A stretch of DNA of 64,000 bases from Prolixibacteraceae bacterium. Its GTDB lineage: Bacteria > Bacteroidota > Bacteroidia > Bacteroidales > Prolixibacteraceae. Positions 339 to 33,182 of this stretch are shown in pieces. The translations under genes were made by a program, and so were the position numbers. The DNA lies in contig JAIBEY010000010.1 in assembly GCA_019459525.1 (NCBI GenBank), positions 1-64,000 of the forward strand. Direction: 5' to 3'. The notes under the pieces were generated by a model that searched no databases, had not been told where the DNA came from, and saw only the letters and a program-made list of their open reading frames with translations. Positions within the stretch are counted from its first letter, which is position 1. Each line of letters begins with the position of its first letter.

Positions 339-2840
339 ATGAAATTTTTAATGCTGTTTATAACCATATTTTTATTCCTGATTGAAATTGACAATGCAGT
401 TAGCTCCGGAATAATTAAGGGTGTTGATGGTGTTAAGAATGAAATAACTACGAGTGAAAATAATAGAACGGATACACTTCTTTTAGAGGTGTTTACTTCC
501 CAGTACATAAATTATTATGCCCCAAAATCAGGTTCTGTAAATCTGGCCTGGAAGATTGATAACTTTCCCCTTGAGGAATCGGTTCTGTGGAATGAAAATA
601 CCAAAATTACGGATGGTTTATTGTACACACCAATGGAGGCTCATGGTGATACCTTTAAAGTGAATTTACGAGTGCCAGTCGGCTCCAATTTGCAATATTA
701 CTTCTGGACTACGAAAAATAAAGATGGAGCTTATCAGGAGTTTTGGGATCTTAGGTCGAGCGGCAATATTACTGTTAAGGGTGTTACTACTATCAGTAAA
801 GATGCTGTTTATTCAAAAGTTGAGAAGAAGAAAGAATCCTATATTCTCAGTAAGGGTTGGCTGATCTTTTTTTTATCAAGTGGTGTTTATATGCTGTTGT
901 ATTGGATTAAGAAAAAAAGATTTAATGTAATTGAATCAACTTCTGTAATTGAGAAAGTACTGTTTTTAGGTTTAAGTTTAGCTATTATTCAAGCATTTGC
1001 TCGTGCTGAAATTATAGGGGTTAATCCTAAATCTATTATTTATGATTTTGGGGTGATTGTAAAAATTATTCGGGGAAGTTTTAGCGATTTTCTTTATGTT
1101 ACTGTTTTTGTACTACTCTTTATAATAGCCATTCTTCTGACAAAGAATACTAAAACACGAAAGCTGATTTATTGGATATTTCTCTTTTTTGCTTTGTTAT
1201 CGACTCTAATTGCATATACGAATATTACTACGGTTATTTATCTTGGAAAACCGTTTACCTACCAATGGCTTTATTATTCCGGGTTCTTGGGAAGTCTTGA
1301 TGCAAAGTTGGCATTACGGGAAAATTTATCCGTAAGTATTGTTGTTAATTTAATTGCGTATAGCCTCACTTTGTTGATTGTCGCAAGTATTTTACATCGA
1401 GTATATCAATTCGTGTACCTTCAAAAATACGTCAAGTATATTACTTTTTCGCTGTTAGGTTTAGCATTGGCTGCGTTGTTTATTCAGGCTTATAGATTTG
1501 AAGAGACCTGGACACAGGGACAGTCGGAAAATGCGATTACAGCAATGATTTATTCTACCATCAAAGCAAATTCTAATTCGTCGTTTTATTCATCTAAAAT
1601 TCCAGCAAATATTCCTCCATTTAATCCAATTCAAAGTTCGGTTATTAAAGAACCCTTTCCGGTATTAAAAAATGACCAGGTTAAAAATGTACTTTTCATT
1701 GTTCTTGAATCAGCGGGTGCTGTTTATTTTGATGGATACGGCGCAACATACAAACTTAGTCCAAACCTTAACCGCTATGCCAATCAAGCCCTGATGTTTG
1801 ATCAAATGTATGCTCATGCCCCAGCAACTAACCGATCTCTCGTTTCTATTCTTGGATCAATTTATCCATATTTGTCATATAAAAGCCTAACTCAGGAGGC
1901 TCCTGAAGTTGAGCATCCAACACTTTCATCGGTACTTAAAACTGAAGGGTACCGAACTTCTTTTTTTTCCTCATCTGATCTTCGTTTTCAGAATTGTATG
2001 CAGTTTTTAGCACATCACGGATTCGATACCATAGAAGATTTTTCGACGATTAAATGTGCAAAAGAATTTCAGTTAGAAAGTGGTAACTACAATGAAGGAA
2101 ATGGTATTGATGATATGTGCCTTGCTGATCGGTTGGAATCTTGGATTGATGAAGATACCACTAAAAATTTCTTCTCTATGATTTGGACTGTTCAGGGGCA
2201 TTATCCTTATTTCTTTGCGAATGAAGAAGAAGATTTTGGTGTATCAAATTATAATTTCAACCGTTATTTAAATTGCCTGAAACACAATGACGAACTCATT
2301 GGTAAAGTGATGCAAGTCTTGGAGGAGAAAGGACTTGCATCAACAACTTTAGTCGTAGTGACTGGGGACCACGGAGAGGCATTTGGTCAGCACAAGCAAT
2401 ACGGGCACGGCACTGCACTTTATGAAGAAAACCTAAAAGTACCGCTCTACTTCATTAATCCGACCTTGTTTCGTGGTGAGCGTAAAAGCGATATTGCCGG
2501 AATGAAAGATTTGGCAACAACAACTCTTTCTCTACTTGGTATAAATCCTCCATTAAAGTGGCAGGGACGTGATCTTTTGAATACTCATTCTAACGAGGCC
2601 TTTTTCTTTGCACCTTGGTCTGATTATCTCTTTGGTTACAGAAAAGATTATATGAAATACATTTTTAATGAAAGCCAGAATACTGTTGAGATTTACGACT
2701 TATGTGCAGATCCAAATGAACGAATAAATTTGTTTCATGATGGAATGAAGGACGAAATTGTCAACGTACGAACCAGGATGGCAGCGTGGGTACAATTTCA
2801 GGATAAATTTGTTAAAGAGATGCTCAAAGAAGAAGATTAA
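339..2840 (+). CDS. Membrane alkaline-phosphatase superfamily protein (LTA synthase/sulfatase-like)
   Basis: This 833-residue protein has a signal-like segment (1-22) and an exported domain (about 50-148) rich in aromatic residues that resembles an Ig-like or carbohydrate-binding sandwich. Six likely membrane helices follow (about 173-190, 205-223, 250-267, 276-294, 330-352, 366-384), then a sulfatase-fold domain from about 447. Visible landmarks are the metal-binding LESAG (E457), the nucleophile region APATNRS (T497 probable) and GDHGEAFGQH (D677, H678), followed by H690. Relatives transfer phosphoglycerol or phosphoethanolamine, or cleave sulfate; the six helices favour a transferase acting outside the inner membrane. 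It heads a same-strand run of glycosidases and a GT2 synthase, so decoration of that glycan is a reasonable inference. Substrate is unknown. The N-terminal extra domain is unusual for LtaS-type proteins. Confidence 0.75.
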   Translation: MKFLMLFITIFLFLIEIDNAVSSGIIKGVDGVKNEITTSENNRTDTLLLEVFTSQYINYYAPKSGSVNLAWKIDNFPLEESVLWNENTKITDGLLYTPMEAHGDTFKVNLRVPVGSNLQYYFWTTKNKDGAYQEFWDLRSSGNITVKGVTTISKDAVYSKVEKKKESYILSKGWLIFFLSSGVYMLLYWIKKKRFNVIESTSVIEKVLFLGLSLAIIQAFARAEIIGVNPKSIIYDFGVIVKIIRGSFSDFLYVTVFVLLFIIAILLTKNTKTRKLIYWIFLFFALLSTLIAYTNITTVIYLGKPFTYQWLYYSGFLGSLDAKLALRENLSVSIVVNLIAYSLTLLIVASILHRVYQFVYLQKYVKYITFSLLGLALAALFIQAYRFEETWTQGQSENAITAMIYSTIKANSNSSFYSSKIPANIPPFNPIQSSVIKEPFPVLKNDQVKNVLFIVLESAGAVYFDGYGATYKLSPNLNRYANQALMFDQMYAHAPATNRSLVSILGSIYPYLSYKSLTQEAPEVEHPTLSSVLKTEGYRTSFFSSSDLRFQNCMQFLAHHGFDTIEDFSTIKCAKEFQLESGNYNEGNGIDDMCLADRLESWIDEDTTKNFFSMIWTVQGHYPYFFANEEEDFGVSNYNFNRYLNCLKHNDELIGKVMQVLEEKGLASTTLVVVTGDHGEAFGQHKQYGHGTALYEENLKVPLYFINPTLFRGERKSDIAGMKDLATTTLSLLGINPPLKWQGRDLLNTHSNEAFFFAPWSDYLFGYRKDYMKYIFNESQNTVEIYDLCADPNERINLFHDGMKDEIVNVRTRMAAWVQFQDKFVKEMLKEED

Positions 2841-2908: not shown

Positions 2909-4624
2909 ATGAAAAAAAAGATTCTATACCTACTTGTATTGGGTGGATTATTTTTGGTTGCAGGATATCTGTTTAAATACAGTGATTTTATTCATCGTTT
3001 GATAAAGAGCGGCATTTCAAATGCTATTGAGGTGAATCGTTCAGAACCTGTTTTGGCCAAGTTTTCATTTAATCCGGAAGTCACTGATCAGCTTTCTGGA
3101 CCATTTTTTCATTACACTGTAAGGCTTGGAGATGAAAAAAAATGGGATGTTGAAAGCGACGATCTGGCTCGGATAAATGATAGCATTCCCTTAATGATTA
3201 CTGTAGAAACCTGGGGCCAGAATATGAAGGCTTTGTCAGGGGATAATCTTAATGAAAAAGTAGTTAAGGGCAAGTTTGATGCGGTCATTAAGCAATTGTG
3301 CACACAACTAATTGGACCCCGGCCAAATGTATATCTTAGGTTTAATCCTGAGATGGAGGTTCCGGTTAGCCGTTATCCATGGCAACAACATGGTGGATCT
3401 GATTATATCGGAGCTTTTCGCCATTTTGTTGATTTGTGTAGAATCTATGTGCCACAGGCGAAGCAAGTCTGGGGACCAGCAGGCTACCCGGGAACAATGG
3501 AATTTTATCCGGGTGATGACTATGTTGACGCCGCTTCGGTAACCATAAAAAGTACGTCAGAAATGGCACTAAAAGTATATCCTTCAGACTATCCAATTGC
3601 ATACGACTTGATGAGAAGATTGCACCGACTAAGGTTTCTGAACAAACCTATTTTTGTACTGGGTTCTCAGCAGATATCAACCGATTCAGTAAATAGTCAG
3701 TTGATTTCTCAAATTTCCAGGCAAATCAGGAAGGAAAGTGATGTGGTGTATTCACCTGCTAATTTTAAACGGCTATCGTTAAAGACAGAGGTTATTCGGC
3801 AAAAGAAAATTGAAATTGGGCTTTATGATCCACAAGCTTTGCTGATTGCAGAAAAGCCTGTCAGCGTTGAACATCTTTTTGCAGATTTTGGTAATCTGGC
3901 TGATGGAACTTTTCAAAAGAGTTTTAGTGGAGTTGTTGAACGCGGACATGATGTCATTGTAACTTTTGAGCCTTTTCGCAATCCCAACGGAGAAAATGAC
4001 CTGAATGTACTTCAGAATGTGACAGATGGAAAGTATGATCGGGAAATTAGCCGGTTATATTCCATCATAAGAAACACCAGTCGTATTGTCTATTTGCGTT
4101 ATGCGCACGAAATGGAAATCCCAATTTCCCGCTACCCATGGCAAAGTCAGGATCCGGTAAGTTACATTAAATCATTTCGATATTTTATGAATTTTAGTGA
4201 CAGCCTTCCTTCAACAATCAGACGTGTTTGGGGGCCAGCTGGCGACAGGGGTTCTATAGAGTGGTGGCCAGGAAGCGATGTGGTGGATTATGTTAGTATT
4301 GCCATTTACGGCTTGCCTGATAAGAATATTACTGATCCTGAGAAACAAGAAACTTTCGCCACCATTTTTAATCGTAAGTATTGGCGACTTCGGTATATTG
4401 ACAAACCGATTTTTATTACTGAGTTTGGGGTAAAGGGGCCGGAGGAGTATCAAACAAAATGGCTGGAAGCGGCAGCGCAGGTTATTCGTAAAAATCCTCA
4501 GATAGTAGGAGTGAATTATTTCAATATGTCTGATACGCCTAAAGCCTGGGGCGAGATCAAGCCTCCGGACTGGAGTATTTCTCGAAAATCATTCTATCGG
4601 TTTTTAGAAATGCTGGCTGAATAA
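2909..4624 (+). CDS. Tandem GH26-type glycosidase, first domain degenerate
   Basis: This 571-residue protein begins with a membrane anchor or uncleaved signal (about 4-22) and carries two similar GH26-like halves. Both halves have an acid/base block followed by SRYPWQ and a WGPAG...PG.D.VD block. In the second half the acid/base is E401 (YLRYAHEMEIP) and the nucleophile is E505 (KPIFITEFG), as expected of GH26. In the first half the acid/base position is kept (E148, YLRFNPEMEVP), but the nucleophile strand reads KPIFVLGSQ, with G252 where the glutamate should be, so the first half is predicted inactive and may bind glycan. GH26 members cleave beta-mannan, mixed-linkage beta-glucan or beta-1,3-xylan; the substrate cannot be chosen from sequence. 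It lies 68 bases after the phosphatase-superfamily gene. Confidence 0.8.
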   Translation: MKKKILYLLVLGGLFLVAGYLFKYSDFIHRLIKSGISNAIEVNRSEPVLAKFSFNPEVTDQLSGPFFHYTVRLGDEKKWDVESDDLARINDSIPLMITVETWGQNMKALSGDNLNEKVVKGKFDAVIKQLCTQLIGPRPNVYLRFNPEMEVPVSRYPWQQHGGSDYIGAFRHFVDLCRIYVPQAKQVWGPAGYPGTMEFYPGDDYVDAASVTIKSTSEMALKVYPSDYPIAYDLMRRLHRLRFLNKPIFVLGSQQISTDSVNSQLISQISRQIRKESDVVYSPANFKRLSLKTEVIRQKKIEIGLYDPQALLIAEKPVSVEHLFADFGNLADGTFQKSFSGVVERGHDVIVTFEPFRNPNGENDLNVLQNVTDGKYDREISRLYSIIRNTSRIVYLRYAHEMEIPISRYPWQSQDPVSYIKSFRYFMNFSDSLPSTIRRVWGPAGDRGSIEWWPGSDVVDYVSIAIYGLPDKNITDPEKQETFATIFNRKYWRLRYIDKPIFITEFGVKGPEEYQTKWLEAAAQVIRKNPQIVGVNYFNMSDTPKAWGEIKPPDWSISRKSFYRFLEMLAE

Positions 4625-4952: not shown

Positions 4953-6296
4953 ATGAGAAAACAGTTTTTTATCATTATTTCCCTTGTTGCATTCATCGTT
5001 TTGTTATGTGGATTTTTCTTCACGGTGAATTATCGTGGAAAGAAAAACATCGATAAGACCAAAACTGTATATATTGATAAAACAGATAACGGCTTTCAGC
5101 TTTACAGGAATGGAAGTCCGTTCTATATTCGCGGGGCTTCCGGAGATGCGAATTTTAAGGTCCTATCTTCAATAAACGGAAATACCATTAGGTTATATGA
5201 TACATTAAACCTTTCGAATGTTTTGGATGAAGCTGAACGTTATGGTTTAGCTGTTATCGCGGATATACCATTGCCTAAGTATGATAGACAATTTAACTTA
5301 TACCTGAACGAAACCAATAATACGTTACTAAAGCAAAAAATAAAGGCCTTGGTAAAAACTCATAAAAATCATCCTGCGCTTTTAATGTGGAATTTAGGAA
5401 ATGAACTGTCATATCCATTTGTTTTTTGGAAGAATGATTTTATCAAAACGTTTAATGATCTAATCGATATTATACACCAGGAAGACCCCAATCACCCAAT
5501 ATGTACGGCAATTGCAGGTGTCAGCCGAAAAGTAATTGCCAGTATTAATATGCACTCACCACAAATTGATTTATTATCATTCAATATTTTCGGTAATACA
5601 AAAAATTTCAGTACTAATATTGAACAGATTTCTACTTTATTTGGATCCAGACCTTATTATATCAGCGAGTGGGGATCTGATGGCCCATGGGAATGTAGAT
5701 ACACTTCGTGGTACGCACCAATTGAACCAACGAGTGTTAAGAAAGCGGAACAAATTCGAACAAGGTATAAAATTATAACCGAAAATAAAGATGAAGCATG
5801 TCTGGGTTCATTGGTTTTTTATTGGGGAAATAAACTTGAATATACTTATACCTGGTATAGCTTTTATCTGAATAATTACAAGTCCGAAATTATTAAAGAA
5901 CTCGAAAGTCTTTGGAGTAATTCGAATACCGAACCATCCCTTATTGGGCTAGATTATATGTTGCTGGATGGCAAGGGAGCTATGGATAACATTATTTTGG
6001 CCCCTAATGAATTGATATCTTCCGAAATAATATTTAGTAAGAACAAAAAGGATAGTATTCGGATTAAATGGGAAATATTCCCAGATGTATGGTATCAATC
6101 GAAATACGAAACTAAATATACCATGGGTGTCGACCACAAAAAAACAGTGAATTCCTTTCAGCATTTCGAAAATAATAAAGCAGTTTTTATTACGCCTGAA
6201 ACTGAAGGACCATATAGGATTTTTGCATATATATATGACGAGAATGGATATTTTGCTACTACAAACACCCCATTTTATGTATTGAATAATAAATGA
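4953..6296 (+). CDS. Membrane-anchored GH2-type glycosidase
   Basis: This 447-residue protein has one N-terminal membrane helix (about 5-25), a TIM-barrel typical of the GH2/clan GH-A catalytic domain (about 45-320) and a C-terminal Ig-like beta domain (about 330-445). The acid/base is E151 in MWNLGNE and the nucleophile is E239 in ISEWG; both are intact. The normal GH2 N-terminal jelly-roll and sandwich domains are absent, so the enzyme is a reduced form. It acts outside the inner membrane if the helix is an anchor. Its last codons overlap the start of the GT2 fusion gene by four bases (ATGA), which implies translational coupling. The same two-domain arrangement recurs at the C-terminus of that fusion. 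Specificity is unknown; GH5-like activity is an alternative reading because clan A families share these motifs. Confidence 0.72.
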   Translation: MRKQFFIIISLVAFIVLLCGFFFTVNYRGKKNIDKTKTVYIDKTDNGFQLYRNGSPFYIRGASGDANFKVLSSINGNTIRLYDTLNLSNVLDEAERYGLAVIADIPLPKYDRQFNLYLNETNNTLLKQKIKALVKTHKNHPALLMWNLGNELSYPFVFWKNDFIKTFNDLIDIIHQEDPNHPICTAIAGVSRKVIASINMHSPQIDLLSFNIFGNTKNFSTNIEQISTLFGSRPYYISEWGSDGPWECRYTSWYAPIEPTSVKKAEQIRTRYKIITENKDEACLGSLVFYWGNKLEYTYTWYSFYLNNYKSEIIKELESLWSNSNTEPSLIGLDYMLLDGKGAMDNIILAPNELISSEIIFSKNKKDSIRIKWEIFPDVWYQSKYETKYTMGVDHKKTVNSFQHFENNKAVFITPETEGPYRIFAYIYDENGYFATTNTPFYVLNNK

Positions 6297-9200
6297 GTAA
6301 CATTAATCAAATAAAGTCTCTGGCAAGGAAAGAAAAAATCACCCTAAGGGTTATGATTCTTCTTGGATTGTTGTGCATTGTCTATTTCTTCTATTGGTTT
6401 TTAGATACAGATCTTATTGAGGACCAGTTTCTTTTTTGGTTGTTAATTGTAGCAATTGCATTTGATACTTTAAAAGCTATTTATATCTGGTATCATTATT
6501 GGGATATTTCAATACCCGAAAAGCCTCAAAATATATCCGATCTGACCGCAGATGTTTTTACCACTTATTTCCCGGGAGAACCTTATGAAATGGTCAAAGA
6601 AACTCTTCTGGCCATTCAGCGGATGAAATATCCGCATACGACATATTTGTGTGATGAAGCCAATGATGAATACTTAAAGAGTTTTTGCCGGGAAAATAAT
6701 ATTGTACATGTCACCAGGAATAATCGTATAAACGCAAAAGCCGGTAATATAAATAATGCCCTTTTGCAGGCTAAAGGCGATATCTGCCTTATTTTAGACC
6801 CGGATCATATCCCAATAGATACTTTTCTGGACGAAGTAATTCCCTATTTTGAAGATGAAAAAATAGGTTTTGTTCAAACAGTTCAGGCTTATTACAATGT
6901 GGGGGAATCTGCTGTAGCCAAAGGTGCCGCTGAACAAACTTTTCATTTTTATGGACCTGTTATGATGAGTATGAACTCTTATGGCACAGTAAACGCTATT
7001 GGTGCAAATTGTGTTTTCAGGCGGAGTGCCTTGGATTCAATTGGTGGTCATGCTGCCGGTTTGTCCGAAGATATGCATACTGCCATGCAATTACACGCCA
7101 AAGGATGGAAATCTATTTATGTGCCCAAAGTATATACTAAAGGATTGTCGCCAGCTTCGCTTACAGCCTATTATAAGCAACAGTTAAAATGGTCACGGGG
7201 AACATTGGAATTACTGGTTGCGGTTTATCCCAAGTTATTCCGGAAATTTACCTGGCGTCAAAAAATACATTATGGGATTTTACCCTTACATTATCTTTCT
7301 GGGATTATCTACCTGATTAACTTTTTAATTCCGATTATTTCCTTGTTTATGGCCACTACACCATGGAAAGGGAATGTGGTCAACTTTGGTTTAATATTTA
7401 TCCCAATATTCATTTGTATCTTAGGTATCAGGTTTTATGTGCAGCGCTGGGTAATGTATAAAAGCGAACGGGGATTGCATTTGACCGGTGGACTTTTGCA
7501 GACTTGCACCTGGTGGATTTATAACATAGGCCTTATTTATACCATAATTCGTAAAAAAGTTCCGTACCTGCCTACTCCAAAAGAAGATAAAGAACTTACA
7601 AGCTGGAAGATTGTGATGCCAAATCTTCTGGTAGGTATAATTTCTATCATTGCGGTAATTTATGGATTGTCGATCGATCTCACTCCGTTTTCGATTTTTA
7701 TGTCTGGGTTCGCCATTTTGAATGCTATTTTCATGTTCTATACGTTGTTTTTCGCTTACCAGAAACAGAAAATTGTTTTACCGAATTTTAACCCGATAGT
7801 GAAAAAGAAATCAGTATTGCAATGGGTACAGAATTATAGTTTCTATATCTGGCGTAAGGTTGCATTGCCCGTTATTGTTATTATTTTGGTAATGTCGGTA
7901 TCAATTCAGCACGATATGGAATATGTGAAATGGGGAGGAGTGACGCCTGAAGTTCAAAAGAAGCACACCATTAATTACCTTGGTATTTTTGCGCCCCAAA
8001 ACGATGATGGAAATACCAGTCTTAAAAACGTAAAAGAAATATCCAGCCAGATTGATGAGAATTTTGATATTATCTCACTTTATCTGGCATGGGAGAAAAA
8101 CATAGACTCAACCTTTCCGTTGCAGTTGCTCGACTCCATATACCAGCAGAAATCTATTCCAATGATAACCTGGGAGCCATGGTTAAATTCGTTCGATAAA
8201 GAACTGGATACTGGCCAGCATGTTTACCAGCTTATTGTGGAAGGCTATTTTGATACCTACATTACAGATTTCGCCGAAAGATTAAAATACATGCAAAGGC
8301 CAGTTTTTTTGAGGTTTGCGCACGAATTCGACAATCCATTCTACCCTTGGTTTGCAGATGGAGATGATGCATCGTCAAAATTTAAAAAAGCATGGATTCA
8401 TACATATGAAATATTCAAAAATATTGGGGCCAATAATGTTATTTGGATTTGGAACCCTTGGAAAGCCAATAATGTGGCAGCATTTTATCCTGGAGAAGAA
8501 TATGTTGACTGGATTGGGGTGAATATCCTAAATTATGGCAGTTTGAATCAGGATGGGAAATGGCATGACTTTAAAAATTTATATGAGCCCTTTCATAACG
8601 AATTGAAGAATCTTCCATCAACCCCTGTAATTATTTCGGAATTTGGGACATTAAAAAATGACCAGCGACAAAAAGAGTGGCTTAAGGATGCTTTCATTGC
8701 CATTGAAACCGAGTTTAAAGAAATACAATCGGTCATTTATTTTAACAGTAAAGTTGATAACAACTGGCCTGATGGATTAAAGTCGAATGAGAATCTGGAC
8801 TGGACCGTAGCGAAAATACAGGAGATCAAGAATTCGTTTAGCAGCAAAGAAGTACCCGATTATGTGTTCTCTCCATTACCCGAGCTCAAATATGCCAAAG
8901 CAGTTTCGGTACCTGAACAAACTAAAAGACAAGTGAACATACAGGGCATGAATCTTAAGAAGGGTCATGACTGGCGCAAGGATTACCATGTTTTAAGTCG
9001 AAAGAACCTTTTGACCGACTTTGAAAAAATAAAACATCTTGGAATTAATACTATAAAATTCGAAGGGAACTCGGTTTATGATTATAACATTGTAAACATT
9101 GCCAACGAATTTAATCTTGACGTTTCTTACGGTTTTTTTATTTCTGCGGATATTGATTTTGTAAAAGACACGACTAAAACGAAGGAGTTAAAACAAACTA

Positions 9201-10090
9201 TTCTTGAAAAGATAGCAGAACAGAAAAAATACAGAAATATAACTTCATGGAACATTCAAAACGATGTACAATATAATCAAAAAGATTTTTTCCTGAAACC
9301 CAGATTGTTATACCAAAATAGCGCTTACGTGTTATGGTTAAAAGACCTGGTTCTAAAAATAAAAGAAATCGATTCAACAAGACCGGTAATTGTTGATCTT
9401 GAAGTTAATCTGCTTTCAATTTATCATTCGAGAATGCTTCTGGCAAATATCCCTGAAATCGATGCACTGGGATTAGTGGTAAAAGATGATAGGTACCTGG
9501 ATCGATTGATTGCCTTCTTTAAACAAGAGAAAGCAGAATTCCTTTTTAGTGAAATTGACGTAGATATGCTGGCAAAGCCTGAGATTTTTAAAGAAGAAAT
9601 ACCTTTTTTTATAACGGCATGGCAAGATATACACGAGAGCAATAAACTCACTTTTACGGGTATTATCGATCGAAAAGGCAGATTTAAAACGGATTATTTT
9701 GAACTGCTTAATACATTGAAAAAATCCAATATTCAAGTAGAATCACCCAAAGTCAGGATTCTGAAGCCTGCCACACTTATATATGAAGATATGAGTTTAG
9801 ATTTTTACGCCATGTATTACGACGAAAAGAAAGGTTGGATATACGGTGGTAATTTGCCCAATTTAAATTTCGAATGGTCGTTGATTAAATGTGATGTTTA
9901 CGATAATAGCCTGGCCATAAAAGATATTGGGTCTGGAGCCTCCATTGCTGTAAAAATACCAAGAGATTATGAGTCTTATAGGTTATTGCTAACAACCTCT
10001 GTTGGTGAGACTATTACCCAGACAATCTCTACATTAAATACCCCTTTGGTACCAAAAGAAGCACATGCCGCTTTATCGGTTCGGCAATAG
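6293..10090 (+). CDS. GT2 processive synthase fused to GH26 and GH2-like domains
   Basis: This is a 1265-residue multidomain protein. Two N-terminal helices (about 19-38, 46-68) precede a BcsA/CrdS-like GT2 domain with D121 (CDEAND), LDPDH (D169, D171), SED (E259, D260) and QQLKW at 296-300, a QxxRW variant with Lys for Arg. Helices near 329-353 and 361-382 follow. An amphipathic stretch (403-420) leads to a gating-loop-like PYLPTPK, then helices at 440-459, 465-489 and 522-538. A GH26 domain (about 550-830) keeps E678 (RFAHEF) and E783 (ISEFG). A GH2-like barrel (about 880-1130) has WNIQND, so D991 replaces the acid/base Glu; E1087 may be the nucleophile. An Ig-like domain ends the protein. 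If 403-420 is an interface helix as in BcsA, there are seven spans and the glycosidase part is periplasmic. It probably polymerises and extrudes a beta-glycan. Confidence 0.8.
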   Translation: MSNINQIKSLARKEKITLRVMILLGLLCIVYFFYWFLDTDLIEDQFLFWLLIVAIAFDTLKAIYIWYHYWDISIPEKPQNISDLTADVFTTYFPGEPYEMVKETLLAIQRMKYPHTTYLCDEANDEYLKSFCRENNIVHVTRNNRINAKAGNINNALLQAKGDICLILDPDHIPIDTFLDEVIPYFEDEKIGFVQTVQAYYNVGESAVAKGAAEQTFHFYGPVMMSMNSYGTVNAIGANCVFRRSALDSIGGHAAGLSEDMHTAMQLHAKGWKSIYVPKVYTKGLSPASLTAYYKQQLKWSRGTLELLVAVYPKLFRKFTWRQKIHYGILPLHYLSGIIYLINFLIPIISLFMATTPWKGNVVNFGLIFIPIFICILGIRFYVQRWVMYKSERGLHLTGGLLQTCTWWIYNIGLIYTIIRKKVPYLPTPKEDKELTSWKIVMPNLLVGIISIIAVIYGLSIDLTPFSIFMSGFAILNAIFMFYTLFFAYQKQKIVLPNFNPIVKKKSVLQWVQNYSFYIWRKVALPVIVIILVMSVSIQHDMEYVKWGGVTPEVQKKHTINYLGIFAPQNDDGNTSLKNVKEISSQIDENFDIISLYLAWEKNIDSTFPLQLLDSIYQQKSIPMITWEPWLNSFDKELDTGQHVYQLIVEGYFDTYITDFAERLKYMQRPVFLRFAHEFDNPFYPWFADGDDASSKFKKAWIHTYEIFKNIGANNVIWIWNPWKANNVAAFYPGEEYVDWIGVNILNYGSLNQDGKWHDFKNLYEPFHNELKNLPSTPVIISEFGTLKNDQRQKEWLKDAFIAIETEFKEIQSVIYFNSKVDNNWPDGLKSNENLDWTVAKIQEIKNSFSSKEVPDYVFSPLPELKYAKAVSVPEQTKRQVNIQGMNLKKGHDWRKDYHVLSRKNLLTDFEKIKHLGINTIKFEGNSVYDYNIVNIANEFNLDVSYGFFISADIDFVKDTTKTKELKQTILEKIAEQKKYRNITSWNIQNDVQYNQKDFFLKPRLLYQNSAYVLWLKDLVLKIKEIDSTRPVIVDLEVNLLSIYHSRMLLANIPEIDALGLVVKDDRYLDRLIAFFKQEKAEFLFSEIDVDMLAKPEIFKEEIPFFITAWQDIHESNKLTFTGIIDRKGRFKTDYFELLNTLKKSNIQVESPKVRILKPATLIYEDMSLDFYAMYYDEKKGWIYGGNLPNLNFEWSLIKCDVYDNSLAIKDIGSGASIAVKIPRDYESYRLLLTTSVGETITQTISTLNTPLVPKEAHAALSVRQ

Positions 10091-28453: not shown

Positions 28454-29932
28454 TTATTTTACACCGGTACGGGTATCCCACCACAATTGTTTTCCCCAGC
28501 AATAATCAACAATGCCTTGAGATTTTAGAGCTAAATCAAGTTGTGTCATATTATAAAGATACTGGTTTTGCGGATAAGGCATTCGGAATGGCTGATCATT
28601 GTGTGCTGATCCATATTTAGACCGAAGTGATACATAGTTTGTTGTAGGCACTCCTGTTCTGCGATACAAACACCATGCTTCGTGGTTTTCTTTAAATAAG
28701 GCAACCCACTGTTCCCACCATATTCTGGTTTTTGTGTTATCCCATTTTCCCTTTCCGGCAAGATAAGCATCGGTCTCGTCGTCCGAAATTTCATTGCTTT
28801 CCATGGATAACCTTACAGCCTTGTCATAAGCGTCAGCGGCAGTAATGCCTACATTATAGCCAAGCATAGCAGCTTCAGCCTTGATGAAGAACGTTTCGCA
28901 TGACCTGTAGTAGGGAGTGAATCCGGATGGGTCATCACGGTATATAGCGCCAATTCTGGAAACAGTATTGAGCTGTGGTTGTGCAGCAGCACCATTTTGA
29001 AACCCGCGGTATTCATTGTCTTTTGTCGCAGGTTTGGCAATGATATGGATGCGTGGATCCTCCATACCTAAAAGATGGTTGATGAAAATATCAGACAGCC
29101 CATGGTCGTCACGGGTACGTTTGTTGTCGTACCAAGGTTCGAAATATGGGGAAGAACCTTGCCACCAGAAATAGGCATTATCTTCATTGGTTTCTATTAC
29201 TGGGTATTTGGTGGGGTTGCCGCAAATCTCTTCTATGGTTTGTTTGGCCAAAGCCGAAGCAACTCCGGATATACGCATAGCGGCCCGCAAGCGAATTGAG
29301 TTACAGAATTTTTGCCATTTAGAGGCATCGCCACCAAAGAGAAAATCTCCGTCTCCAATCTTGTCACTACCAATCCCTGCGGCCATTTCATCAGCAATGG
29401 TTTTCATATTGGCTAAAACATCGGTATAGACATCTTGCTGTGCATCATATTTGGAAAGTAAAATACCACCTTCTTCGGGTTCTCCTTTTAGTGCTTCGGA
29501 ATATGGAATATCTCCCCAGGTATCCACAGCATAAAGCCATAAATAATTCTTCCATATCTTGGCTGCCCAACGGATATTTTTATTCCCATCGGCCATTTCT
29601 TCTGTGTTTTCGAGCAGGATGTTCAATTGTTTATTTCCCCAATAACAATTATACCAACGGTTCCCATAGGTATTATTGGATGGGGTAAGACCAGCCAAAT
29701 CGTCCAAATACTGGATTTTTACAATATAGCCGGCATAAGTACCGTAACCATCCATGTCGCCTCCCTGTTGGGTAGTTGTAGTGCGTAAAACATCTCCCAA
29801 AATATTGGTTGCCGGAACCGAAGAAAGAGCGTCCGGATCTGTATTAATTTCATCAAAGGATCCCGTACAACCGGTGATTAATGTTGTCGCGATTAACGAT
29901 AGGCAAAGCCATTTCGATATTTTTATTTTCAT
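28454..29932 (-). CDS. SusD/RagB-family surface glycan- or peptide-binding lipoprotein
   Basis: This 492-residue lipoprotein has a lipobox LITGC with C22 as the acylated residue. The SusD-2-like fold is suggested by the early NTDPDALSS block, the WYNCYWGNKQLNILLENTE helices, an ETFFIKAEAAMLG TPR-like helix, and an ending in PFRMPYPQNQY. SusD proteins cap their SusC barrel and capture ligand. It begins 19 bases after susC. No CAZyme, peptidase, ECF sigma/anti-sigma pair or hybrid sensor is adjacent, so the nutrient cannot be guessed. Confidence 0.9.
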   Translation of the reverse strand: MKIKISKWLCLSLIATTLITGCTGSFDEINTDPDALSSVPATNILGDVLRTTTTQQGGDMDGYGTYAGYIVKIQYLDDLAGLTPSNNTYGNRWYNCYWGNKQLNILLENTEEMADGNKNIRWAAKIWKNYLWLYAVDTWGDIPYSEALKGEPEEGGILLSKYDAQQDVYTDVLANMKTIADEMAAGIGSDKIGDGDFLFGGDASKWQKFCNSIRLRAAMRISGVASALAKQTIEEICGNPTKYPVIETNEDNAYFWWQGSSPYFEPWYDNKRTRDDHGLSDIFINHLLGMEDPRIHIIAKPATKDNEYRGFQNGAAAQPQLNTVSRIGAIYRDDPSGFTPYYRSCETFFIKAEAAMLGYNVGITAADAYDKAVRLSMESNEISDDETDAYLAGKGKWDNTKTRIWWEQWVALFKENHEAWCLYRRTGVPTTNYVSLRSKYGSAHNDQPFRMPYPQNQYLYNMTQLDLALKSQGIVDYCWGKQLWWDTRTGVK

Positions 29933-29951
29933 AATTCTATCTCCTTGTTTA

Positions 29952-32900
29952 TTAGAAAGTAAGATTTAATTTAATACCGTAACTACGGGAAGAGGGAACA
30001 GATGCCTGTTCGAAACCAACTCCTCGCGTATCACTGGAAACACCACCTGCTTCAGGATCCAGACGTAATGTATTTGAATCATGCACCCATAACAGAGCCA
30101 GATTAGATCCAATCAACGAAATCGTTGCTTTGTTGATGTAGTTTATTCTTGAAAGTAATGATTTTGGAAGGTTATAGGTAATGTTGGCCTCGCGCAGTTT
30201 CAGGAAAGAACCATCAAAAACATACATTTCAGCTACACCACCGCTTTCGAACCATGTTTGTGCATCAGTCTCAATTGTATTGGGTACCCAGTTGCCACTG
30301 GCATCCTGCATTACAAATCTTTCATTCGTCATAACATCTTTTCCTGCAACAATAGCCCGTTCACGAACCCCATTTTTAATCGTTTCTTCGGCAGTTCCAG
30401 CAGTATAACTATGACTCATAGACTGAGACCATAAATCGCCGCCAATACGCAAATCAAGGAAAAATCCAAAAGATAAACTCTTAATAGAGAAGTTGTTTCT
30501 CCAGCCACTTATAAAATCAGGGGCTGCATAACCTATTTTTTTACTAGCCTCAGTTGAAATTAATCCACTGCTGTTGACTTTGATAGCACCATCCTCTGTT
30601 CTTGCATATCCGGTACCAACAAGTACTCCCCAGGGTTCTCCGGCAATTGCCTGATTTGCAATACCCCAAGTCCATCCCAATTGATACGATTTCAATGCAG
30701 GGAAGTCAGGAGCTAATTCCACAACTTTACTCTTGTCTTTAGAGTAATTTAAGGTACTTGTCCAGTTTAGTCCGTTCTTACTGCGAAGGATATCTCCACG
30801 TAACTGAAGTTCGAGTCCTTTGGATTTTATTTTTCCGGCATTTAATACCATAGATGAAAATCCTACCACATTGGATGTAGAAACATTCATGATCTGATCT
30901 TCAGTTGTCTTGCTGTAGTAAGCCACATCAGCGTGCAGACGGTCATTAAAAAGACCTGCTTCCATTCCAACTTCCCATGTTTTTATGCTTTCAGGGCGTA
31001 AGCCTTCATTGGGGTAAGTGTAACTCCTGTACATCTGGGCAACTCCTTTAAAAGAGCTAGCCTCTGCATAATAATAAGCACGGTTGCGATAGGCAGTGGT
31101 AGCTGAACCAATCTCAGCCCAACCTCCACGTAATTTCAGGAACGACAACACATCGTTTTTTAACCATTCGAACGATTCAGTTGGCAGCCAGCTTAAACTA
31201 ACTGATGGGTAGAAGAATGATTCGTTGATGGTCGAGCTCCAGTCGTTACGGGCACTCATATCCATATAAAGCTGATGTTTCCAGCCCAAAGAACCTGATG
31301 CGTAAACTGAATTTGACCGCACATGGCTATGATCCATTTCTGCAATGGCATCACCAACTTTGTTTGATAAAGTGTAAACGCCGCGGACTGTTAGATTCGA
31401 TGCTCCAGTTCTGTCATAGTCGTAGTTTACGTCACGATAGTTCGCCCCGGCAGTAGCTGAAACATTAAAATCACCATAAATTTCATTAAAAAAGGCAATG
31501 AAATCGGCGTTCAGTTCAGTATTTTTATACATGCGCTGATCAAATCCACCTTCAGGATAATCGCCATAATCTTTATAATGCCGCTCAAAAGTCTTCATGT
31601 TATAAGTGTCTAAACCTAAGCGCCCTTCAAATTTCAGGGATTTAATGGGTTGGAAGAACAATGAAGATTTAGCGAAGAGCCTGTCGCGTGTGAGGCTGTT
31701 TGTGTTTTTATATACTGTAAAGTATGGGTTTATGTGATAATTATTATTCCAGTTGTAATACGAATATTCACCTGAGGCATCTTTTTGATCCCAGTTAGCC
31801 TTTAGTGTTTCCATATTGATTTGGCGTGCTGACCATATCATTAATCCGTTAATTGGATTGTTTCCGCCGTATCCCTGACCAAGCAAGTTGTCACTTTGAG
31901 TTCGGGTGTAGTTTGCACTCATATCAAAAGTAAAATATTCATTCAATTTCATATTGGTATTAAATTGTCCTGAATATCGCTTTTGATCGGTATTGGGAAC
32001 TGTACCTGTTTGATCACGGTAAGAAAGCGAAGCGCGTGTGTTACTCTTTTCTGACTGAGATTGTACTGATATCGTGTGATTCTGTGAATAACCTGCCTGA
32101 AAAAAATCTTTTATGTTATCAGGTCTTGATATCCAGTCTGTTGCCTGCCGTACTCCATTGGTGATAGGGCTGTCATATTGTGGAAGCTTAAGTCCTACAT
32201 CTAAACGTGGTCCCCATGATTCATCATAAAAGTCGTTTACCCCGTTGGACCCATCTTCCCAGCTGAATGCGTCTGTTTGTGCGAAATCCTGATATGTTGA
32301 TGTGCCTCCATTAGTTTTCCAATGATATTCATCACCACCATAACCTTGTCCATATTCATTTTGCAACTTGGGTAAGGTTGATACCTGGTCAACGGTAAAA
32401 TTTCCGTCATAGGAAACAGTTACACCTTCTTTCCCTTTACCTGATTTTGTGGTGATTAAAATTACACCTCTTCCTGCCAACATACCATAGATAGCAGCAG
32501 AACCTCCTTTTAAAACAGATATTGACTCAATATCTTCCGGGTTAATATCGTTCAAGCCGGACCCATAATCAACGCCACTATACGTATTGTCACCAGACCG
32601 TTTGGTGTCGTTCGAGATAGGAACTCCATCCACAACGATCAAGGGTTGCTGGTCGGAGCTAAATGAGGAGTTACCCCTTATAGAAATACGGGAAGAAGCC
32701 CCAACGGTACCCCCAAACTGGTTGACCTGCACTCCGGCTACTTTTCCTGAAAGTGAACCTGTGAGGCTGATTTGGCCAGCTTGAGTGAGTTCTTCTGATT
32801 TTACTTCCTGAACAGCGTATCCCAACGATTTTTTTTCTCTTGTAATACCAAGAGCTGTGACCACAACTTCATCGACAGAGATGTTGTCAGAAACAAGACC

Positions 32901-33182
32901 TACATTGATTACGCTTTGATTTCCAATCAGGACCTCCTGTGTTTTCATTCCAACAAATGTGAATACAATTGCTCTTGATTCTTGCGGAACTTTCAAGTTG
33001 TACTTCCCATCCATGTTGGTAATGGTTCCCAGGGTGGTCCCTTTCACTGATACTGAAACTCCGGGGATAGAACTGCCATCGGCGGAAGAAGTCACTTGCC
33101 CCGTGATTTCCTTCGTTTGAGCGTTTACTAATCCTATTCCTGAAATCAGGAATAGAAAAAAACAAAATAATCTCATTTTCAT
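29952..33182 (-). CDS. SusC/RagA-family TonB-linked outer-membrane transporter
   Basis: This 1076-residue protein has a signal peptide (about 1-21), a carboxypeptidase-regulatory-like domain (about 25-105), the plug with VNQFGGTVGASSRISIRGNSSF and DIESISVLKGGSAAIYG, then a long barrel ending in YGIKLNLTF with the terminal Phe expected for outer-membrane insertion. It lacks the extra N-terminal STN signalling domain, so it is not wired to an anti-sigma factor. Together with the lipoprotein downstream it forms the usual pedal-bin importer. It lies between recJ and lysS, isolated from utilisation genes. The length fits short SusC forms. Confidence 0.93.
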   Translation of the reverse strand: MKMRLFCFFLFLISGIGLVNAQTKEITGQVTSSADGSSIPGVSVSVKGTTLGTITNMDGKYNLKVPQESRAIVFTFVGMKTQEVLIGNQSVINVGLVSDNISVDEVVVTALGITREKKSLGYAVQEVKSEELTQAGQISLTGSLSGKVAGVQVNQFGGTVGASSRISIRGNSSFSSDQQPLIVVDGVPISNDTKRSGDNTYSGVDYGSGLNDINPEDIESISVLKGGSAAIYGMLAGRGVILITTKSGKGKEGVTVSYDGNFTVDQVSTLPKLQNEYGQGYGGDEYHWKTNGGTSTYQDFAQTDAFSWEDGSNGVNDFYDESWGPRLDVGLKLPQYDSPITNGVRQATDWISRPDNIKDFFQAGYSQNHTISVQSQSEKSNTRASLSYRDQTGTVPNTDQKRYSGQFNTNMKLNEYFTFDMSANYTRTQSDNLLGQGYGGNNPINGLMIWSARQINMETLKANWDQKDASGEYSYYNWNNNYHINPYFTVYKNTNSLTRDRLFAKSSLFFQPIKSLKFEGRLGLDTYNMKTFERHYKDYGDYPEGGFDQRMYKNTELNADFIAFFNEIYGDFNVSATAGANYRDVNYDYDRTGASNLTVRGVYTLSNKVGDAIAEMDHSHVRSNSVYASGSLGWKHQLYMDMSARNDWSSTINESFFYPSVSLSWLPTESFEWLKNDVLSFLKLRGGWAEIGSATTAYRNRAYYYAEASSFKGVAQMYRSYTYPNEGLRPESIKTWEVGMEAGLFNDRLHADVAYYSKTTEDQIMNVSTSNVVGFSSMVLNAGKIKSKGLELQLRGDILRSKNGLNWTSTLNYSKDKSKVVELAPDFPALKSYQLGWTWGIANQAIAGEPWGVLVGTGYARTEDGAIKVNSSGLISTEASKKIGYAAPDFISGWRNNFSIKSLSFGFFLDLRIGGDLWSQSMSHSYTAGTAEETIKNGVRERAIVAGKDVMTNERFVMQDASGNWVPNTIETDAQTWFESGGVAEMYVFDGSFLKLREANITYNLPKSLLSRINYINKATISLIGSNLALLWVHDSNTLRLDPEAGGVSSDTRGVGFEQASVPSSRSYGIKLNLTF

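Follow-up and report, generated by a model that had tools for sequence, protein, structure and literature searches.

Why would a bacterium join a polysaccharide synthase and two hydrolase folds in a single polypeptide? This question is raised by a gene at 6293..10090 (+ strand) in the first 64,000 nucleotides of contig JAIBEY010000010.1 from a Prolixibacteraceae bacterium (the window, meaning the whole stretch that was analysed). Its product of 1265 residues is a GT2-GH26-GH158-like fusion synthase, as assigned from the open reading frame, Pfam, sequence matches in the PDB, an AlphaFold2 model and Foldseek. The gene of a separate GH158 enzyme (4953..6296, +) overlaps the start of the fusion gene by 4 bases. 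Our answer, which as a whole we consider somewhat better than an even guess, is that the fusion is a membrane beta-glucan synthase whose chain, as it emerges, undergoes cutting or transglycosylation and ends up as short, defined or cyclic molecules in or near the periplasm.

The reading frame contains zero internal stops, and the source genome holds one copy of the fusion. A frame or assembly artefact was ruled out, as 72 further full-length versions with identical domain order align with the window protein, giving an alignment of 73 rows after the removal of 4 duplicates and 4 short sequences. Pfam places GT2 families at residues ~100-350 and GH26 (PF02156, above the cut-off) at residues 645-766, and gives no convincing match in the C-terminal third. 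In the PDB, the top sequence match of residues 16-435 is Rhodobacter sphaeroides BcsA (E 2e-36), and the closest solved relative of residues 577-826 is the Clostridium thermocellum lichenase Endoglucanase H/CtLic26A (E 1e-23). The single frame with a BcsA-like synthase and a GH26 domain, claimed in a preliminary description of this DNA, is thus borne out.

The membrane and GT2 part (6326..7933, +; delimited by alignment, hydropathy scan and model) has its GT2 core at about residues 85-305. Here D87, D121, K149, D169xD171H172 and E259D260 are invariant in 73/73 aligned fusions, and so are Q296, Q297, K299 and W300. The motifs of BcsA-type processive GT2 enzymes, as given in the available text of PMC10237404, are D, D, DxD, (T/S)ED and Q(Q/R)xRW; every one of them is there in all 73, save that the last has K in place of R. 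The canonical QxxRW thus reads QQLKW in the window (7178-7192, residues 296-300), with the pattern Q-Q-x-K-W and a fixed Arg-to-Lys change in 73/73 full fusions. In a plasmid search for GT2 relatives, 24 of the best 25 of 504 records were labelled bcsA.

The side of the membrane on which the hydrolase folds lie depends on the number of spans. The AlphaFold2 model (residues 1-1200, 69 sequences; mean predicted local distance difference test score (pLDDT) 87.1, predicted template modelling score 0.75) has long helices at residues 12-36, 45-69, 321-353, 362-387, 438-461, 465-489 and 508-547. Two short helices, 397-405 and 407-418, are below membrane-spanning length and sit at the position of the BcsA interface helix. 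The helix pairs 321-353/362-387 and 438-461/465-489, with the short helices 397-418 between them, reproduce a BcsA-type channel layout, and BcsA is the best fold match in Foldseek (E 3e-25). An alignment-averaged hydropathy scan finds the same seven regions plus 403-411, eight segments in total; because hydropathy alone counts eight, it is the model that carries the seven-span topology. By positive-inside counts, helices 1, 3, 6 and 7 fit this topology clearly, and helices 2, 4 and 5 give a mixed picture. If the GT2 domain is cytoplasmic, like that of BcsA, seven spans would probably leave GH26 and the C-terminal unit outside the inner membrane; the model therefore supports the earlier proposal of seven spans, an interface helix at 403-420 and periplasmic glycosidases, for which the hydropathy scan by itself gives eight. 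Pfam finds no PilZ domain in the fusion, and the seventh transmembrane helix and the hydrolase domains occupy that position.

The GH26 domain (residues about 560-845; 7970..8827, +) appears to be lichenase-like. CtLic26 is matched by the model in Foldseek (E 2e-16, TM-score 0.84 by target length), and the next GH26 enzyme by PDB sequence match, 6hf2, follows at E 2e-10. Alignment with CtLic26A identifies the acid/base E678 (8324-8326) and the nucleophile E783 (8639-8641), with H677 also there; thus the fold and both catalytic glutamates of GH26 are present. Across the family both glutamates are kept in 70/84 distinct GH26 domains, and a neighbouring His and a Trp are also kept in 65/71 both-glutamate rows, the window protein among them. 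One locus, in Chitinophaga japonensis (L060:3518-13759), has two tandem copies of the GH158 and fusion pair; the GH26 domain of the first copy is without the conserved His and the WEPW motif and keeps both glutamates.

The separate GH158 enzyme has 447 residues and an N-terminal hydrophobic anchor, and it matches 9oro (E 3e-51, residues 40-442) and 6pal (BuGH158, E 6e-42) in the PDB. In BuGH158, a beta-1,3-glucanase, N136, E137 and E220 are each required for activity, according to the available text of PMC7157763. Their counterparts here are N150, E151 and E239, so that the protein combines a barrel and an immunoglobulin-like (Ig-like) domain with the N, E, E set; this set is intact in 83/83 separate GH158 sequences. 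The C-terminal unit of the fusion (residues about 880-1265; 8930..10087, +), a barrel with an Ig-like part, is a distant relative of this enzyme, as judged from sequence comparison. BLASTP aligns the barrel with the separate GH158 at E 5e-7 (24% over 150 columns), and two six-sequence profiles match with 94% probability (E 1e-7) and with the catalytic positions in register, N990 D991 opposite N150 E151 and E1087 opposite E239. In six other fusions, the barrel and Ig part align to the separate GH158 at 20-24% identity. Searched alone against the PDB, the window C-terminal sequence has no match at E 1; Foldseek with the whole model also returns GH158 structures at a lower rank (3e-8), in a table that does not show which barrel matched.

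Because N990 D991 faces N150 E151, the acid/base is lost in the window protein, and the fused C-terminal unit, with N990, D991 and E1087 where GH158 needs N, E and E, is probably inactive. Only 6/78 distinct fused GH158-like units keep N, E, E. The barrel had been called GH2-like, an assignment that we drop for GH158: a GH2_C Pfam match on the upstream gene (E 2e-9) stands against GH158 structures at E 3e-51. Likewise, of the two glycosidases said to be tethered to the polymerase, the GH26 has its catalytic residues, whereas the second is a fold that is probably dead. The window protein would thus have one active and one inactive hydrolase fold.

The architecture is recurrent in Bacteroidota, as the search for other GT2-GH26 fusions suggested in the preliminary description has revealed, with the 73 aligned full-length versions. 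A scan of genome contigs gave 152 stretches encoding a relative, and the best 80 yielded 77 loci in Prolixibacteraceae, Flavobacteriia, Chitinophaga, Pedobacter, Cytophagales, Balneolaceae and others. At E at most 1e-30, and with some genomes incomplete, the fusion is in 5/23 genomes of the window's genus and 0/14 of the rest of its family, and 2/24 other genomes of the order have only a relative whose GT2 and GH26 are not joined in one gene. In a phylum sample, 30/395 genomes match at 1e-40 or better; matched ranges and opened loci divide these into 14 fusions (the window's included), 1 split form and 15 GT2-only matches. Shorter architectures also exist, namely GT2-GH158-like (967-993 residues; loci L092, L093) and GT2-GH26 (821-867 residues; L094-L098), and in a distant group GT2 and GH26 are encoded separately (L089, L090, L099). 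In this split group (L089:529-7611; L090:7516-14583), the gene ahead of GT2 encodes a tetratricopeptide repeat (TPR) protein in L090 and L099, and the interval from GT2 to GH26 contains a nucleotidyltransferase gene and two sugar dehydratase/epimerase genes in L090, with like-sized genes in L089; its product is perhaps a different, modified exported polysaccharide.

The hydrolase modules differ in state across 90 rows, 89 of them distinct (L105 is identical to L047), where a GH26 counts as intact if it has its two glutamates and a GH158-like unit if it has N, E, E. Among 76 distinct full-length fusions, GH26 only is intact in 66, the GH158-like unit only in 5, both in 1 and neither in 4. The other distinct rows are 5 GT2-GH26 proteins with a dead GH26, 2 GT2-GH158-like proteins with that unit dead, 3 split forms with GH26 intact and 3 with GT2 only. 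On a quick tree, with long outgroup branches and an unsure root, GH26 must change state 3 times, the C-terminal unit once and the architecture 5 times. By eye, loss of GH26 looks strongly tied to keeping the GH158-like barrel (66/5/1/4 of 76); this link was rejected as being without statistical support, because the events are few: the either-or pattern among full-length rows comes down to one barrel change and two GH26 changes, with two independent pairs showing no difference in the other trait. In Gelidibacter, both the fusion (L029:10001-13759) and the GH158 gene (L030:8674-10001) are frame-broken, by sequencing error or as pseudogenes.

The separate GH158 gene accompanies the fusion almost throughout. 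Neighbours were counted in 90 fusion entries (98 minus 3 split, 3 GT2-only and 2 other GT2 genes in L077 and L079), which include L105, the contig-end-cut L028, L031, L046, L068 and L083, and the frame-broken L029 as two pieces. A GH158 gene is in the locus in 87/90; in 76/90 it lies immediately upstream in the same orientation, no more than 200 bp away, in 10/90 it is on the opposite strand, with some of these genes 2-3 kb off, and the second piece of L029 has it at 1163 bp. The 3/90 entries that are without it are L031 and L083, both cut by contig ends, and L086.

Further upstream in the window, a tandem GH26 protein (2909..4624, +; 571 residues with an N-terminal hydrophobic anchor; genome scan and alignment) keeps H400, E401 and E505 in its second barrel in 19/19 sequences, and its first barrel is without the nucleophile glutamate in all 19; here too, an active barrel has a dead companion. 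At 339..2840 (+) lies a membrane enzyme of the sulfatase/alkaline-phosphatase superfamily, assigned from NCBIfam, PDB matches and motif alignment. Its E, T497 and DH motifs are conserved in 10/10, and the cysteine that a sulfatase motif contains is absent. We take the E, the Thr nucleophile, the DH metal ligands and the membrane anchor to be of LtaS/OpgB type, and our guess is a candidate phosphoglycerol or phosphoethanolamine transferase. A true sulfatase is disfavoured by the absent cysteine, yet sulfatase models score best: NCBIfam bits are 74 for arylsulfatase, 72 for choline-sulfatase, 55 for LtaS and 44 for phosphoglycerol transferase I, all far below cut-off, and PDB matches are mostly sulfatases, with LtaS weak. 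By eye, a beta-sandwich-like segment at about residues 45-165 precedes its membrane helices. Ten further recurrent neighbour families of the related loci were scanned and proved to be housekeeping, TonB/SusD, sugar-nucleotide or sensor genes, with no outer-membrane polysaccharide exporter among them; neighbour clusters 2, 4, 5 and 22 are antisense and were set aside as shadow open reading frames. Elsewhere in the window, a SusD-like gene and an adjacent TonB-dependent receptor gene are on the minus strand at 28454-33182, and other genes scanned at 22-62 kb are mostly housekeeping.

We propose the following course of events. The cytoplasmic GT2 domain would polymerise a beta-glucan, most likely from uridine diphosphate glucose, and the chain would be pushed through the BcsA-like channel. 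On emerging, it would meet the tethered GH26 and the neighbouring GH158, which may process it, by cutting or transglycosylation, to short, defined or cyclic products that remain in or near the periplasm; between hydrolysis, transglycosylation and cyclisation, sequence cannot tell. The inactive GH158-like barrel would probably hold or steer the chain, and in the window cluster the transferase may add phosphoglycerol or phosphoethanolamine. We infer the beta-1,3, and possibly beta-1,4, linkages because the GH26 is lichenase-like and GH158 is a beta-1,3-glucanase; the sugar, the processing reaction, the location of the product and its decoration are offered in the same spirit.

Several observations weigh against this proposal. 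No product or activity was found for any member of the fusion family, and QQLKW, with K and not the usual R of QxxRW, leaves the identity of the sugar undecided. The eight hydropathy segments, if all spanned the membrane, would place the hydrolases in the cytoplasm, and the simple lipoprotein pattern in 25/83 separate GH158 proteins means that these could sit elsewhere. A catalytic glutamate is missing from 14/84 distinct GH26 domains, and GH26 catalysis therefore seems dispensable in some lineages. The LtaS-like transferase gene is present in 9/94 related loci and the tandem GH26 gene in 18/94 (95 loci minus L091, an unrelated stretch); decoration is therefore not a family trait. Finally, neighbour clusters 7-24 are eighteen in number, and the scan covered ten of them.

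The dead domains themselves suggest another possibility, that the fused hydrolase folds are mainly non-catalytic and bind or steer the chain while the separate GH158 does the chemistry, and we hold it tentatively. No intact fused hydrolase exists in 11/83 distinct fusions (4 full-length, 5 GT2-GH26 and 2 GT2-GH158), and each of these 11 is accompanied by a separate GH158 gene whose catalytic residues are intact. The dead domains are constrained, less than the synthase: between L074 and L088, in which both barrels are dead, the ratio of nonsynonymous to synonymous substitution rates (dN/dS, or omega) is 0.06 for GT2, 0.19 for GH26 and 0.17 for the C-terminal unit, with dS near 1. Six pairs whose GH26 is intact and whose C-terminal unit is dead give omega values of 0.06-0.14 for the former and 0.07-0.22 for the latter, with the dead unit under the stronger constraint in 2/6; these values are rough, since several pairs have a dS of about 1 or higher, and L077/L079, L080/L086 and L020/L023 were left out for saturated dS. 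A model of L074 (mean pLDDT 83.9) shows barrel-like secondary structure in both dead domains and still matches CtLic26 (E 2.5e-10), with pLDDT under 50 at 673-684, beside the former GH26 acid/base. Against a guiding role alone stand the high retention of both GH26 glutamates, with the His and Trp, and the GH26-dead clade, in which two pairs are 30-33% identical in the dead GH26 and 61-67% in the intact GH158-like unit. This points to catalysis as the property that is conserved wherever it occurs. The built-in trimming, release or guiding device for a beta-glycan that was envisaged earlier agrees with hydrolases outside the membrane in the model and with the intact GH26 residues; a purely catalytic role is too simple for the family, because of the 11 fusions that keep only the intact GH158 gene.

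Alternatively, the hydrolases may act as BcsZ does and only clear misassembled or stalled chains of a long exopolysaccharide destined to cross the outer membrane. The BcsA-like synthase would suit such editing, as would the split group, where the TPR protein directly upstream of GT2 (L090, L099) and the sugar-nucleotide genes between GT2 and GH26 (L089, L090) resemble an export cluster. We consider it unlikely, however, given the ten neighbour families scanned without an outer-membrane exporter and the missing PilZ match in the fusion. More improbable by far is that the gene encodes a synthase of mannan or glucomannan carrying its own beta-mannanase, or a mannanase for biomass degradation, although GH26 members are primarily mannanases in the available text of PMC13390465 and a Robertkochia solimangrovi gene of this kind is filed under beta-mannanase in PMC9690682. 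Both sequence and fold bring the fused GH26 closest to the lichenase CtLic26A, to which the free GH26 of L089 is likewise nearest by sequence, and the usual partner is GH158; the mannan option of the preliminary description is therefore disfavoured. A purely degradative enzyme would not need the invariant GT2 positions.

If the proposed beta-glucan synthase is real, a further polysaccharide synthase carries a processing enzyme on the outer side of the membrane, this time in another phylum and with different hydrolase families, and Bacteroidota gain a candidate glucan system of the periplasm or the cell surface. Inventories of biomass degradation that list such genes as mannanases would then need correction. 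Because the same synthase occurs with an active, a dead or no fused hydrolase, the family amounts to a natural experiment in which modules can be compared or swapped to tell the role of tethering from that of catalysis. A bolder idea, which is speculative, is that Bacteroidota have a periplasmic beta-glucan system of their own, in which barrels were added to a cellulose-synthase-like channel, several became non-catalytic guides, and the free GH158 is the constant cutter or transglycosylase.

Among the literature matches listed, with subscription papers and preprints outside the coverage, there is no functional account of a GT2-GH26 fusion; the term osmoregulated periplasmic glucan is likewise absent from 10 listed papers of 3,413, which is weak evidence. 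The architecture is not wholly undescribed, as a single sentence in PMC9690682 says that the R. solimangrovi GH26 has GT2 in one gene and calls this unreported. The species and strain are those of locus L036, which holds a full fusion, perhaps the same gene; the available part of that paper gives no topology, partner, distribution or function for the gene. Elsewhere, an actinomycete has a Wzx/Wzy cluster in which GT2 and GH26 are encoded by different genes (PMC13390465, available text), and a bacterial GT2 makes mixed-linkage glucan in Romboutsia (PMC10374906, available text).

How, then, does the fusion compare with known systems? Its GH26 shares with CtLic26A the barrel fold, the acid/base and nucleophile positions and the WEPW and YPG motifs, whereas CtLic26A is a separate enzyme and about 23% identical in structural alignment. 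The separate partner resembles BuGH158 in its barrel, Ig-like domain and N/E/E set; the fused C-terminal unit is a distant relative that, unlike BuGH158 of glucan utilisation, is without the acid/base in the window. With BcsA/BcsZ the system has in common the GT2 fold, the transmembrane layout with interface helices, the catalytic motifs and a separate glucanase, as BcsZ is in the cellulose system; it differs in having no PilZ match, a tethered hydrolase of GH26 type, and QQLKW in place of QxxRW. The nearest parallel is Pseudomonas Orphan/NdvB, where, in the available text of PMC10237404, GH17 is joined to GT2, is periplasmic by modelling and is linked to a cyclic beta-glucan, partly glycerol-phosphorylated; cutting and cyclising of beta-1,3-glucan are proposed there. 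Glt1, Glt3 and Glt7 likewise have an N-terminal GH17 and a C-terminal GT2 (PMC11005184, available text). Both Orphan/NdvB and our fusion combine a BcsA-like GT2, a membrane channel and a periplasm-placed triosephosphate isomerase (TIM)-barrel hydrolase fold in one polypeptide. In contrast to the N-terminal GH17 of Orphan/NdvB, the fusion has no GH17 match in Pfam, carries GH26 and a GH158-like unit at its C-terminus, has a separate GH158 partner and belongs to a different phylum. By this analogy, our best reading is that the fusion works like the Pseudomonas GT2-GH17 cyclic-glucan synthase, without being a member of that group.

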